Part shown: positions 21,791-62,485 of the stretch, piece by piece
Numbering within the stretch: position 1 is the first letter of the stretch
Layout: the number at the start of each line of letters is the position of its first letter
Translations under genes and position numbers: made by a program
Notes under the pieces: model-generated
Told to the model about the DNA's origin: nothing
Database searches by the model: none
What the model saw: only the letters and a program-made list of their open reading frames with translations
Assembly: GCA_028283625.1 (NCBI GenBank)
Contig: JAPWKG010000004.1
Location: 62,001-126,000, forward strand
DNA length: 64,000 nucleotides
DNA from: Acidobacteriaceae bacterium
Lineage (GTDB): Bacteria > Acidobacteriota > Terriglobia > Terriglobales > Acidobacteriaceae
Reading direction: 5' to 3'

Positions 21791-22238
21791 AGTGCAGGCG
21801 GCCGGGTGATCGCTGCTGCGTGGGGCTCTTGTTCCTTGGAACATTGGCCGTTGCGCAGGGGAGGAAAGTCCGAACTCCGCAGGGCAGTGTGCCGGATAAC
21901 GTCCGGGACGCGAGCGTCAAGGCTCGTGGACGGCCAGTGCAACAGAAAGCAAACCGCCCGGGGTAACCCGGGTAAGGGTGAAAGGGTGGGGTAAGAGCCC
22001 ACCGCGTCCGCAGTAATGCGTACGGCACGGTAAACCCCACACGGAGCAAGACCAAATAGGCAGGGAGATCGAGTGCCACTCTTCAAGGCGCGATCGCGTG
22101 GCGGCCCGTCACGTCCAGGCGAAGAGATGCCGCAAGGCGAGCCGGAACCTGCGGGTAGGTTGCTTGAGCCAGTCAGTAATGGCTGGCCTAGAGGAATGAT
22201 CGCCTAGAACAAAATTCGGCTTACGGGCCGCCTGCACT
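21791..22238 (+). ncRNA. rnpB: RNase P RNA component (type A)
   Basis: The catalytic RNA of ribonuclease P removes tRNA 5' leaders. The ends pair as helix P1: AGTGCAGGCGGCC (21791-21803) with GGCCGCCTGCACT (22226-22238). Conserved-region hallmarks are present in order: GAGGAAAGTCCGAACTCC from 21861, ACAGAAAGCAAACCGCC near 21942, a GGTAAACCCC element near 22030, AGAGGAATGATCGCC near 22190 and ACAAAATTCGGCTTAC ending P4/P2. The length of about 448 bases is normal for a type A RNA with extended peripheral helices. Open frames over it are accidental. Confidence 0.96.
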
Positions 22239-22285
22239 GTTCTTCTTTTGCTGCGAAAACAGAAGCGCGGGGCTAAGCTGAAGAT

Positions 22286-58661: not shown

Positions 58662-59705
58662 TTATGCGTGGACTGCGGCAACCGCCGGAGCGACGCGGCG
58701 ATCCACCACCGGCGCCAGCAGACGCAGCTTGGCAACCAGCTCGTTCAACTGCTCCGGCGTGAGGGATTGTGCACCGTCGCTCATCGCCTTATCCGGATTG
58801 GGATGCATCTCCATCAACAAACCATCGCCCCCTGCAGCGACCGTGGCCATCGCCATGGCCGGCACGAACGAACGCTTGCCTACGCCGTGCGAAGGATCGC
58901 CAAAGACCGGAAGATGGGTCAGCGATTTGAGCACCGGAATCGCCGAGATATCCATCGTGTTGCGTGTTGCGGTTTCGAAGGTGCGAATGCCGCGTTCGCA
59001 GAGCATCAGGTCGTAGTTGCCGCCGCTCAGAATGTACTCTGCGCTGAGCAAGACCTCTTCGATGGTGGCAGAGATGCCACGCTTCATCAGCACCGGTTTA
59101 CGCACCTTGCCGAGCTCACGCAGAAGGTTGAAGTTCTGCATGTTGCGTGCGCCCACCTGGAAACAGTCGATGTAGGGCAGCATCGTTTCGATCTGCGAAA
59201 TCTCCATCACTTCGGTGATGACCAGGAGGCCGTTTTCGTCTGCGGCTTCGCGCATCAGCTTCAGGCCTTCAACCCCCATGCCCTGGAAGGAGTAGGGCGA
59301 AGAGCGGGGCTTGAACGCGCCGCCGCGCAGGAACTGTCCGCCTGCCTCCGCAACCTGCTTCGCGCTCAGACGAATCTGATCCCGGCTCTCTACCGAGCAA
59401 GGGCCAGCCATGATCACCACGTCTTCGCCACCGACGAGAACGCCGTTGGGGAACGTAATGCGCGTGCCTTCAGGACGGAAGCCGCGGCCTGCCAGCTTGT
59501 ACTGCGACGAGATACGGTACGCCTGCGAGACGCCGGGCAGAACCTGGAATTCGGTAACTTCAAAGTGCGAAGGCGCGCCAACGCCGGCGAGAATCGTCTG
59601 CGTCTGGCCTGTTGTGCGGTGCACGTTGAAGCCAAGCTCCTCCATGCGTTCGATGACTGCTTCAATCTGTTCTGTACTTGCCTGGTCCTGCATGGCAACG
59701 ATCAT
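58662..59705 (-). CDS. aroF: 3-deoxy-7-phosphoheptulonate synthase (AroF type)
   Basis: The 347-residue protein is the Bacillus/Thermotoga-type type I DAHP synthase, committing enzyme of the shikimate pathway. An N-terminal ferredoxin-like regulatory domain (residues about 1-70, [17 protein letters not shown]) precedes the barrel. The barrel has [44 protein letters not shown] and [15 protein letters not shown]. It is the fourth gene of trpB-trpA-aroQ-aroF, following the chorismate mutase by 34 bases. Expression would fall under the aromatic attenuator before trpB. The ferredoxin-like domain suggests feedback control, commonly by Tyr or Phe. Confidence 0.95.
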
Positions 59706-59739: not shown

Positions 59740-60000
59740 TTACTTGACTCGCTGCTTAGCGCGCATCACGTCCATAATGCGCTGGTAGATGTCATCGAGC
59801 TCTGCGTTGGTGAGCGGGCCGGGGTTGATCGCAGTGACGTGCTCATAGACCTTCTGCTCGCGTTGCGGTTCATACACCGCAGCAGCGTTTGCCTGCTTGA
59901 GCTTGCCAATCTCGACCGCACAAGCGGCACGCTTGTTCAGCAGGAAAGTAATCTGCTCGTCGAGTTCATCAATCTGCTTACGCCAGTCCGCGATTTCCAT
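59740..60000 (-). CDS. aroQ: Chorismate mutase (AroQ class)
   Basis: ATG 60000 (MEIADWRKQID), with GGAG 8 bases upstream, gives an 86-residue all-helical protein; the longer frame to 60252 overlaps trpA. It carries the AroQ layout WRKQIDELDEQITFLLNKRA, VEIGKLKQ and the C-terminal IYQRIMDVMRAKQ, with the conserved Arg/Lys/Gln residues that hold chorismate. It converts chorismate to prephenate, the branch to Phe and Tyr. Pairing with DAHP synthase next door recalls AroQ-regulated DAHP synthases of some bacteria. Confidence 0.93.
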   Translation of the reverse strand: MEIADWRKQIDELDEQITFLLNKRAACAVEIGKLKQANAAAVYEPQREQKVYEHVTAINPGPLTNAELDDIYQRIMDVMRAKQRVK

Positions 60001-60055: not shown

Positions 60056-60835
60056 TTAGGTTGAAGGCTGGCCCCCTTCCTTGAGCTGGCGAACGAACTC
60101 GCCAACTGCGCGTGGAGCTTCAGCTGCTGGGGTTTTCTCCACCAGAGCAACGAGAGCAGAACCCACGACGGCGGCATCGGCAAAGCCGGCCACCGTCTTG
60201 ACATGCTCCGGTGTAGAAATGCCGAAACCAAGCGCAACCGGGATTTGCGCAAACTGCTTGAGACGCTTCACCAGCGTTTCCGCATCGGCGGCAAGCTCTG
60301 TCTGTGTCCCCGTAATGCCGACGCGCGAGATCGCGTAGACAAAGCCGCGCGAGTTTTCTGCAATGGCTTTCAAGCGTTCATCGGGCGAAGTGGGCGCTGC
60401 GAGGAAGACCGGCGCAAGATCATTCGCGCGCATCGCTTCCAGATACTCACCCGCTTCTTCGACAATCATGTCGGTGAGCAACACGCCGTCCGCACCCGCG
60501 TCTTTCGCGGCTTTTGCGAAGGCGGTCATGCCGTAGCGCACGACCGGATTCAGATAGCTGAAGAGAATGATGCCAGCGTTCGCGCGTGCATTGCGAATCT
60601 CACGGCAGGTCTTCAGCACATCTTCCAACCGCGTACCTTTAGCGACAGCGCGCTCACTCGCACGTTGAATGACAGGGCCATCGGCCAGCGGATCGCTGAA
60701 CGGCACACCCAGCTCGATGACATCCGCACCCGCGTCAACTGCGGCGATTGCCATATCGCGCGTGGTGGCAAGATCGGGATCGCCTGCGGTGAGGTAGATT
60801 ACGAGGCCGGGCTTCTTTTCAAACTTAATCGACAT
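60056..60835 (-). CDS. trpA: Tryptophan synthase alpha chain
   Basis: The 259-residue barrel cleaves indole-3-glycerol phosphate to indole. It shows PGLVIYLTAGDPDLATT, the catalytic Glu in ADVIELGVPFSDPLADGP and the catalytic Asp in GADGVLLTDMIVEE. Phosphate is bound by ISRVGITGTQTE, VALGFGISTPEHV and AAVVGSALV. Its ATG shares one base with the trpB stop (TAATG), coupling the two chains of the alpha2beta2 complex. Confidence 0.96.
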   Translation of the reverse strand: MSIKFEKKPGLVIYLTAGDPDLATTRDMAIAAVDAGADVIELGVPFSDPLADGPVIQRASERAVAKGTRLEDVLKTCREIRNARANAGIILFSYLNPVVRYGMTAFAKAAKDAGADGVLLTDMIVEEAGEYLEAMRANDLAPVFLAAPTSPDERLKAIAENSRGFVYAISRVGITGTQTELAADAETLVKRLKQFAQIPVALGFGISTPEHVKTVAGFADAAVVGSALVALVEKTPAAEAPRAVGEFVRQLKEGGQPST

Positions 60836-62076
60836 TACTTCTTTGCCTCCGAACCTTCCAGGCTCATCTCGTTGCGCAGAATGCCGATGTCCTTGTCGCC
60901 ACGGCCGCTGACGTTCACCATCAGAATCTTGTCTTTGCCCATCTTCGGCGCAAGCTTGATCGCCTCAGCGATTGCGTGTGCTGACTCAAGCGCCGGGATG
61001 ATGCCTTCCGTGCGGCTCAGTACCTTCACCGCTTCAAGCGCTTCGTGATCCATCGCGTAGGTGTAGGTCGCGCGGCCTGAGTCGTGCAACATGGCGTGCT
61101 CCGGTCCAACGCTTGCGTAGTCGAGACCCGCGCTGACAGAGTGCGTCGAAGAGACCTGGCCAGCGTCATCCTGCAGCACGTAGCTGTAGGTGCCCTGCAG
61201 TACGCCCGGGATGCCGCCGTGAAAGCGCGCAGCGTGCTCCCCAAGAGCTGTGCCGCGTCCGCCAGCTTCTACGCCGACCAGCGCCACGCTCGCGTCGTTG
61301 AGGTACTCATAGAACGCGCCGATGGCATTCGAGCCGCCGCCGACACAAGCCACGACGGTGTCCGGCAGCTTATCTTCAGCGGCAAGAATCTGCTCGCGCG
61401 ATTCACGCGAGATGACGCGTTGAAAGTCGCGCACAATCGTCGGATACGGATGCGAGCCGAGCGCCGAGCCGAGAATGTAGAAGGTATTCCGCACATTCGT
61501 AACCCAGTCGCGCATCGCTTCGTTAATGGCGTCCTTCAGCGTGGCCGAACCCGCGCTCACGCCGCGTACCTCCGCACCGAGCAGCCGCATGCGGTAGACG
61601 TTCGGCTCCTGACGGCGCATATCTTCTTCGCCCATATAGACGACGCATTCAAGACCGAAGAGTGCGCATACCGTTGCGGTGGCTACACCATGTTGGCCTG
61701 CGCCCGTCTCCGCGATGATGCGTGTCTTACCCATGCGCTTGGCAAGCAGTGCCTGGCCGAGCGCGTTGTTGATCTTGTGTGCACCGGTGTGCAGCAGGTC
61801 TTCGCGTTTCAGATAAATCTTTGCGCCACCGAGTTGTTCGCTCAGGCGCTTGGCGAAGTAGAGCGGTGTGGGACGTCCGCAGTAGGTTTGCAGCAGCGCG
61901 TTGAGCTCAGCGTGGAATGCGGGGTCGGCTTGCGCTTCGGCGTAGCACTGGTCAAGTTCAAGTAGTGCGGCCATCAGCGTTTCTGGAACGTAGCGTCCAC
62001 CGTAAGCGCCAAAACGTCCGGGCGCCGAACTCTTCGGCGCGGGGGCTGGGCGGTTGATCGTCTCCACTGGGCTCAT
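60835..62076 (-). CDS. trpB: Tryptophan synthase beta chain
   Basis: ATG 62076 (MSPVETINR) follows GGAG by about 8 bases and gives 413 residues; the upstream in-frame start at 62115 lies inside the terminator leader. The PLP enzyme condenses indole with serine. It has [17 protein letters not shown], the PLP lysine in [14 protein letters not shown], the [17 protein letters not shown] loop, [18 protein letters not shown] for the phosphate, and [13 protein letters not shown]. It is the TrpB1 type. It heads the trpB-trpA-aroQ-aroF unit and is preceded by an attenuator. Confidence 0.96.
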
Positions 62077-62102
62077 GTCATCTCCGGTTTGAGGTACAGA
62101 AA

Positions 62103-62131
62103 GCAAAAGCCGCAACCTTTAGGGTCGCGGC
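62103..62131 (-). terminator. Intrinsic attenuator terminator upstream of trpB
   Basis: On the minus strand GCCGCGACC (62131-62123), loop CTAAA and GGTTGCGGC (62117-62109) form a 9-bp stem with one G-U pair, then TTTTGCTTTCT. It ends about 33 bases before the trpB start, so it must be bypassed for the operon to be transcribed. Confidence 0.82.
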
Positions 62132-62229
62132 TCAGGGGGTCTTTGAACTTGGCTTGAAGCTGGTACTTCGTGTTACTTCGCTTCTCGCAGGCTCAGTCCG
62201 CCGTCGCCGCTACCGGGTGCCAGTAGCGG
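62109..62229 (-). promoter_or_regulatory. Aromatic-amino-acid attenuator of trpB-trpA-aroQ-aroF
   Basis: Four minus-strand segments can pair in mutually exclusive ways. Segment 1 is CCGCTAC (62229-62223), inside the leader-peptide codons Phe-Arg-Tyr. Segment 2 is GGTAGCGGC (62214-62206), segment 3 GCCGCGACC (62131-62123) and segment 4 GGTTGCGGC (62117-62109). Segments 1:2 (7 bp) and 3:4 (terminator) form together. Segments 2:3 (8 of 9 positions, one A-G mismatch) form the antiterminator. A ribosome stalled at the Phe/Tyr/Trp codons blocks segment 1 and favours 2:3; a ribosome at the stop codon (62193) covers segment 2 and favours termination. Confidence 0.78.
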
Positions 62230-62267
62230 AACGGAAAGAAGAAAAACGGGCTGGCAAAGTTCTGCAT
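62193..62267 (-). CDS. Leader peptide of the trpB attenuator
   Basis: ATG 62267 opens a 24-codon frame, MQNFASPFFFFPFRYWHP then VAATAD, stop TGA at 62193. It has six Phe (four in a row), one Tyr and one Trp. The Tyr and Trp codons and the last Phe codon lie in or next to pairing segment 1. There is no clear ribosome binding site. A possible promoter (TTGCAC at 62305-62300, TACGCT at 62281-62276) would start the RNA only a few bases before the ATG, so translation may be leaderless. Peptide function is regulatory, not catalytic. Confidence 0.72.
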   Translation of the reverse strand: MQNFASPFFFFPFRYWHPVAATAD

Positions 62268-62485
62268 CGAGAAAAAGCGTAACCCGCGACAAGGCTCCAG
62301 TGCAAGCGCTCTATTCCAGAACGGCCGATTTCAGTACGGAAAAGAAGACGCAGGTATCTCATTCTGCACGGCCACGATATTCGACCGGATTGTCACAGTG
62401 ACGTGAATCGAATGCCCGGTTCGTACATCTTTTCTTGTGTAACGCTCGATCCGACTATGACGGACCGACCAAACAGGAGAGCCGC
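62268..62485. promoter_or_regulatory. Divergent promoter region between attenuator and 50-aa peptide gene
   Basis: These 218 bases hold no gene I can support. On the minus strand TTGCAC-18-TACGCT (62305-62276) is a candidate promoter for the attenuator RNA. On the plus strand the promoter of the small secreted peptide must lie here. No riboswitch or T-box consensus is visible. Confidence 0.4.

Follow-up and report, generated by a model that had tools for sequence, protein, structure and literature searches.

An attenuator-like element precedes the tryptophan synthase gene trpB in the window (the whole 64,000-nt stretch of an Acidobacteriaceae genome analyzed here), confirming an observation first made in a sequence-only reading of this DNA. 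It is very likely a ribosome-mediated transcription attenuator that controls trpB-trpA-aroQ-aroF and responds to charged Phe-, Tyr-, and Trp-tRNA. The parts of the element, their conservation, their coevolution across the family, and the fit of the codons to a modelled stall geometry all back this reading. By sequence comparison, the window element is one of a family-wide set of related putative attenuators that precede aroK, aroF, aroQ (with or without pheA), and trpB.

The leader is a 24-codon ORF on the minus strand (62267–62193) with the translation MQNFASPFFFFPFRYWHPVAATAD*, ending in UGA at 62195–62193 and holding six Phe, one Tyr, and one Trp, just as the sequence-only reading had described it. 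The two strands of the window together hold 578 ATG-started ORFs of 12–45 aa, of which this is the sole one with more than four aromatic residues per nine codons (its densest nine codons hold seven), and its control codons are for products of the pathway that follows. Four segments on the same strand make up the remainder of the element: segment 1 (CCGCUACUGG; 62220–62229), which overlaps the Arg-Tyr-Trp codons and is placed by covariation and folding; segment 2 (CCGGUAGCGGCGACGGCGG; 62198–62216), placed by covariation, duplex energies, and folding, with 1 or 3 as its partner; segment 3 (CCCCCUGAGCCGCGACC; 62123–62139), which pairs with 2 as the antiterminator and with 4 as the terminator; and segment 4 (GGUUGCGGCUU; 62107–62117), the terminator 3' arm, placed by covariation and folding. 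The U-rich tract UUUUGCUUUCU (62098–62108, minus strand) is interrupted, and U-runs, often interrupted as well, also follow the stem in the alignment of relatives (A3). Hairpin and U tract thus lie upstream of a structural gene, with 30 nt between segment 4 and the trpB ATG at 62076. One genome of the genus has an additional GC-rich hairpin (GGGGC TTTC GCCCC; L004:1457–1470) after the terminator and before the start of trpB.

The element sits in the trpF-trpB gap, with a trpC-trpF unit upstream. Downstream, all on the minus strand, follow trpB (tryptophan synthase beta, 60835–62076; Pfam PALP), trpA (tryptophan synthase alpha, 60056–60835; Trp_syntA), aroQ (chorismate mutase type II, 59740–60000; CM_2), and aroF (DAHP synthase, 58662–59705; DAHP_synth_1 and DAHP_snth_FXD). 

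Folding bears out the predicted stems and lengthens two of them. The 1:2 stem, previously given as 7 bp, spans 10 bp in the window (CCGCUACUGG/CCGGUAGCGG, -16.1 kcal/mol), the 7 bp being the part kept in relatives, and the terminator, previously given as 9 bp with a U-run, comes to 11 bp (62133–62123 with 62117–62107, -18.9 kcal/mol). The 8-of-9 core of the antiterminator (62214–62206 with 62131–62123) can be read off the sequence as claimed, and duplex prediction extends it. The naked RNA of the region folds into 1:2 and 3:4 without 2:3, as expected for RNA lacking a stalled ribosome, and this fold beats those of shuffled sequences (z -3.13; 1 of 200 shuffles equally good).

A TrpB search recovered 22 loci of the same genus (L001–L022), and the element precedes trpB in every one of them. 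The leader is readable in 21 (L011 is N-masked), and the indels in its aligned ORF are of 3 or 6 nt; alignment A1 omits L011 and also L021, which is the same element as L020. The sequence-only reading had named relatives lacking the peptide as evidence against it, and here the outcome is mixed: eight relatives outside the genus (L023–L030) have no element before trpB, but three of the genomes without it there (G030, G031, and G033) carry it before aroF, which we read as a move between operons. At the family level, the comparison with relatives that had been proposed as a check came out favourably, since leader, arms, and aromatic codons recur and the pairings covary or coevolve.

We further traced the element with covariance models, which are blind to gene context. 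Model R1, built from 20 genus elements, matches 27 of 28 genomes of the genus and 150 of 300 genomes of the family (37 of 79 genera), the other 150 having no match. Model R2, built from 70 elements, matches 43 of 396 genomes across the phylum, 35 of them in the same family. Six of the eight genomes outside it (G359, G371, G400, G514, G583, and G612, from families f26 and f30) have the match before pheA or aroQ-pheA; an aromatic leader can be read in five of these, and the sequence of the sixth, G359, is cut on the upstream side. The matches in G647 and G683 look like chance. In family f26 (L184 and L188), a leader ..RSRFYFYFYFPPSRGRGSMRAD lies before the prephenate dehydratase gene and the terminator core differs (GCCCCGAAGCGATTCGGGGC), possibly marking an independent origin. 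Genus g48 (L189 and L198; G226 and G145) has a GTG-started leader VRSVYFWRFTFRYGATPAAPMEHAL before a trpB in addition to other R2 matches, and perhaps has two attenuated trpB loci.

Among 86 model matches examined, picked by score and genus spread rather than randomly, 78 precede genes for TrpB, shikimate kinase, DAHP synthase, chorismate mutase, or prephenate dehydratase. The remaining eight (L116, L120, L121, L122, L183, L185, L191, and L192) were dropped as chance: none has such a leader, although longer ORFs occur in L116 (6 aromatic residues in 45 codons) and L121 (7 in 39). Blastx detected no aromatic gene downstream of seven of the eight, and downstream of L185 it gave a weak match to AroF (E 3e-4, at 445 nt). 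Together with the 20 genus trpB elements, the 78 form the set of 98 elements used below, which is therefore partly set by choice, and 78 of 86 is the fair figure. Left outside the 98 are L188 (a twin of L184 with its upstream part cut, followed by PheA), L198 (a near-twin of L189, followed by TrpB), and L064, L066, L068, and L069, each with TrpB next; the counts also exclude L031–L054 (repeats of known places), L161–L179, and L124. The genes after the 98 elements were identified by blastx, with ten proteins from these loci as references, nine of which were also scanned with Pfam. The first gene recognized is TrpB in 36, AroK in 32, AroF in 18, AroQ in 11, and PheA in one; its start is estimated to lie no more than 150 nt from the element in 96 cases, and 168 and 279 nt away in the other two.

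This spread bears on a simpler account, in which the terminator does no more than close the trpC-trpF unit upstream and an aromatic ORF is present by chance. The position of the element in the trpF-trpB gap suits that account, for which a bare hairpin with a U tract would suffice. However, in 62 of the 98 cases a related element, sharing the leader frame and segment 1, stands before a gene that is not trpB, and an end-of-unit terminator has no need of the segment 2/3 coevolution described below, making this explanation highly improbable.

An exact-pattern scan over contigs of 84,980 species returned 33 stretches, 32 of them titled Acidobacteriaceae, Acidobacteriales, Acidobacteria, or genera of that family. 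The 33rd (L140), titled Verrucomicrobia bacterium Tous-C9LFEB, matches G017 of the window's genus and probably stems from a mislabelled genome bin. The order trpB-trpA-aroQ-aroF lies downstream in 21 of the 33; L128 has no aroQ-aroF within 3.2 kb downstream, and the other 11 stretches end within 2.4 kb.

Across the 98 elements, the leader frame carries a clear coding signal. Frame 0 is open over 20 codons in 96 elements (43 and 54 in the other frames), has an upstream in-frame ATG in 93 (10 and 3), and encodes 6.0 aromatic residues per 20 codons (1.1 and 1.7). Because the sequences are related and not independent, we attach no probability to these counts.

Arms within the genus are nearly invariant, so covariation there is uninformative and the signal comes from family-wide elements only. 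The 1:2 stem was assessed on 62 distinct elements (64 of 84; alignment A2), A2 omitting beforehand 20 aroK elements (18 from the genus, L106, and L125), of which the genus ones have a different hairpin. By eye, genus aroK leaders (e.g. L055–L060) seem to use a CUGG/CCAG hairpin instead of CCGCUAC/GUAGCGG and to retain the GCGGC-GCCGC antiterminator core. The 1:2 positions are 91.7% paired, with a covariation score of 0.145 (0.116 shuffled, 0/500) and 12 double-change cells (3.4 shuffled, 0/500). The stem is weak in two of five measures, namely pairs with double changes (2) and pair types, which 81 of 500 shuffles reached. Controls slid by -1 and -3 columns gave 18 and 13 double-change cells, yet were 25 and 53% paired. 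The main change is C-G to U-A: the Tyr codon goes synonymously from UAC to UAU, and the opposite arm changes to match.

The terminator 3:4 is the best covarying helix, being 97.3% paired in 82 distinct elements with 43 double-change cells (13.3 shuffled, 0/500; at most 7 in slid controls). For 2:3, we compared the duplex energy of segments 2 and 3 taken from the same element with that of segments permuted within gene class (83 distinct elements), obtaining -21.24 for matched segments and -19.81 (sd 0.23) for permuted ones, with 0 of 20000 permutations as good. Taken by class, the corresponding counts of 20000 were 0 for aroF, 2 for aroK, 1075 for trpB, and 923 for aroQ, and within the genus 2:3 did not exceed shuffles. 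Predicted from sequence coevolution, the 2:3 antiterminator is well supported across the family and weakly so from trpB elements alone. The element thus combines mutually exclusive 1:2, 2:3, and 3:4 pairings, with 2:3 weak in the trpB and aroQ classes singly. Family-level covariation, coevolution of segments 2 and 3, and the conserved aromatic codons together support the earlier proposal of an attenuator of the pheL/trpL type.

The same switch could in principle act on trpB translation initiation, or via Rho, instead of through an intrinsic terminator, and both the interrupted U tract and the trpB start 30 nt past segment 4 would fit such a mode. Set against this, the covariation of 3:4 is the strongest found, U-runs follow it, and the trpB ribosome site lies outside the 3:4 helix, so that we regard this mode of action as very unlikely and favour transcription attenuation.

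We modelled ribosome stalling with an assumed ribosome edge 12 nt past the first A-site base. In the window, folding of the RNA up to segment 3 gave 2:3 without 1:2 for A-site codons 11–17, mixed pairing for 9 and 10, and, with the A-site at codon 19 or later, no 2:3, predicting a stall window of F11, F13, Y15, and W16, and in part F9 and F10. Over 87 elements, 2:3 forms in all in the model from codon -3 to +3 and in 73–98% further upstream, where 1:2 competes; its share drops to 0.31 at +6 and 0.03 at +8, then to 0 by +11. The aromatic share, taken over 92 in-frame leaders, is 0.73 at -2, 0.91 at 0, 0.97 at +2, and 0.92 at +3; it then falls to 0.55 at +4 and 0.14 at +5 and does not exceed 0.03 between +6 and +11. 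This edge is partly forced, since the codons past +5 belong to segment 2, whose GC-rich sequence can hardly encode aromatics. Given the assumed 12-nt edge, the control codons are placed such that a stalled ribosome covers segment 1 and not segment 2.

From these data we infer how the attenuator would start, be translated, and respond to starvation. RNA polymerase would start at or just before the leader ATG, and a ribosome would load on the RNA 5' end without a Shine-Dalgarno sequence. With all three amino acids ample, it would reach the UGA at 62195–62193 and cover segment 2, and 3:4 would terminate transcription. A ribosome waiting at F11, F13, Y15, or W16 (partly at F9 or F10) would cover segment 1 and leave the core of segment 2 free; 2:3 would then form before segment 4 is made, and transcription would read on. 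If no translation took place, 1:2 and 3:4 would form and transcription would terminate.

Codon choice varies with the gene downstream. At least one Trp codon is present in 36 of 36 trpB leaders, 32 of 32 aroK leaders, 15 of 16 aroF leaders, and one of seven aroQ leaders of this Acidobacteriaceae family, as well as in two of four aroQ-pheA leaders of f30, none of one f26 pheA leader, and none of one further leader (L193, before aroF, listed apart). Trp-bearing leaders thus make up 36/36 for trpB versus 3/12 for aroQ/pheA. The Trp codon sits in the loop of the conserved 7-bp stem, and the seven family aroQ leaders have Tyr, Phe, or Ser at the position where trpB leaders have Trp.

These patterns weigh against a ligand- or protein-binding leader (a riboswitch, a TRAP-like system, or a tRNA-sensing T-box) with a bystander ORF. 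Aromatic genes of other phyla are T-box or TRAP targets, and the hairpin core is strongly conserved. Trp codon content, however, tracks the gene, which decoding explains most simply, and the region has no Rfam match at gathering score. The only family reaching that score in the whole window is bacterial class A RNase P RNA (21794–22239), and a scan of the region down to E 10 listed three unrelated weak families; T-boxes appeared in neither scan. Such a binding leader is, in our estimate, very improbable.

Which amino acids the attenuator reports is a related question, since the sequence-only reading had it sensing mainly Phe. This holds at most for the window species, with its six Phe codons; in relatives, the Phe count varies even among genus leaders, and the best conserved aromatic codons are the Tyr and Trp beside the hairpin. 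In its strictest form, the idea is that the attenuator reports Phe only and that the Tyr and Trp codons are letters demanded by the hairpin. The six Phe codons suit this, as does Corynebacterium glutamicum aroR, whose Phe-Tyr-Phe leader answers to Phe and not Tyr in the part of the source consulted (PMC11802643). A Trp codon kept in the stem loop of all 36 trpB leaders, replaced in the seven family aroQ leaders, and accompanied by a changing number of Phe codons argues the other way. We consider Phe-only sensing unlikely and prefer a response to Phe, Tyr, and Trp.

The start of the leader was examined by comparison of leaders. In agreement with the claim that the peptide lacks a clear ribosome binding site, no Shine-Dalgarno sequence was seen before the window leader ATG, and a Shine-Dalgarno core occurs in 5 of 97 leaders, a figure that stands without a yardstick from ordinary genes. 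(L102 has no ATG- or GTG-started leader, hence 97 leaders from 98 elements.) On the minus strand, a predicted -10 hexamer TACGCT (TANNNT; 62276–62281) lies 8 nt before the ATG, and a predicted -35 hexamer TTGCAC (62300–62305) lies 18 nt before the -10. TANNNT ends 6–10 nt before the ATG in 75 of 97 leaders (shuffled mean 7.4, sd 2.7), a range chosen after inspection of the histogram, the first range of 5–9 nt having given 52 of 97; neighbouring windows of the same width hold it in 1–8 leaders. Of the 75, 70 have TTG 17–18 nt before the -10 (shuffled mean 3.3). By class, the 6–10 nt spacing is found in 34/36 trpB, 29/32 aroK, 6/16 aroF, 3/7 aroQ, and 3/6 other leaders. A consensus promoter scan predicted 0 promoters in the region, so it is the comparison that carries the promoter reading. 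From the hexamer spacing, we infer that transcription starts at the ATG or a few bases away. With hexamers at this distance in 75 of 97 leaders, the leader is probably translated leaderless or nearly so, and the earlier suggestion of a leaderless peptide is strengthened.

The classical mechanism of attenuation is known; what is new here is the phylum, the mixed Phe, Tyr, and Trp leaders, and the related attenuators across one pathway. In Escherichia coli, pheL and trpL follow the same 1:2/2:3/3:4 logic as the window element, and their leaders, unlike it, have a Shine-Dalgarno sequence. Parts of one source describe them as sharing a control-codon leader peptide, termination set by charged tRNA, and a position before biosynthetic genes (PMC11802643). 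They differ in serving one amino acid each, in phylum, and in operon make-up. An attenuator at aroR-aroF of C. glutamicum has reportedly been described by Neshat in 2014. It too has an aromatic leader, with Phe-Tyr-Phe, ahead of a DAHP synthase operon (PMC11802643; PMC4046766), but it belongs to Actinobacteria, Tyr availability is without effect, and no Trp codon is named in the portions of these sources consulted. Excerpts of PMC8632094 likewise describe the Acholeplasma uORFC-13-1 motif, with a Phe-coding uORF and terminator before aroF, which differs in having an RBS, in being restricted to Acholeplasma and environmental DNA, and in serving aroF only. By analogy, the window attenuator would work like pheL/trpL and appears closest to C. 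glutamicum aroR-aroF and the Acholeplasma aroF uORF motif.

Its probably leaderless start is a further difference from known systems. Sections of two sources offer parallels: the Sinorhizobium meliloti trpL attenuator RNA (rnTrpL) has its 5' end at the leader ATG (PMC7298713), and C. glutamicum has leaderless small mRNAs (PMC4046766). The S. meliloti attenuator differs from the window element in responding to Trp only and in preceding trpE(G), and its RNA and peptide also act in trans. No description of such an attenuator in Acidobacteria was found in the open-access literature searched, subscription papers being mostly outside this coverage. As stated in part of a 2010 survey, almost none of its predicted Acidobacteria attenuators had an associated function, and to its authors' knowledge leader-peptide systems were unshown outside Proteobacteria and Actinobacteria (PMC2965389).

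The window species itself (G000; 3.0 Mb, 84.8% complete) has no second match to its TrpB protein, and no second copy of the element was found, the next R2 match having E 0.08. The aroK genes of G000, G006, G024, G017, and G018 have no such leader. With no further R2 match below that value and aroK without a leader, the species seems to keep a single attenuator copy, as far as a genome that is 85% complete can show. For the family-wide set, a common history is conceivable, if slightly short of an even prospect: a single leaderless aromatic attenuator in an ancestor, located at first perhaps upstream of aroQ-pheA-aroF (an arrangement seen in the window's family and in f30), may have been duplicated within Acidobacteriota, its paralogous copies now forming a regulon of shikimate, Phe/Tyr, and Trp genes, with codon sets tuned per branch and with terminated RNAs or peptides that might act in trans.

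For a soil phylum, the elements provide a defined and testable collection of attenuators. The natural exchange of control codons from one gene to another could reveal the rules by which ribosomes sense amino acid supply, and leaderless translation is indicated as a possible route by which short leaders are read in Acidobacteria.
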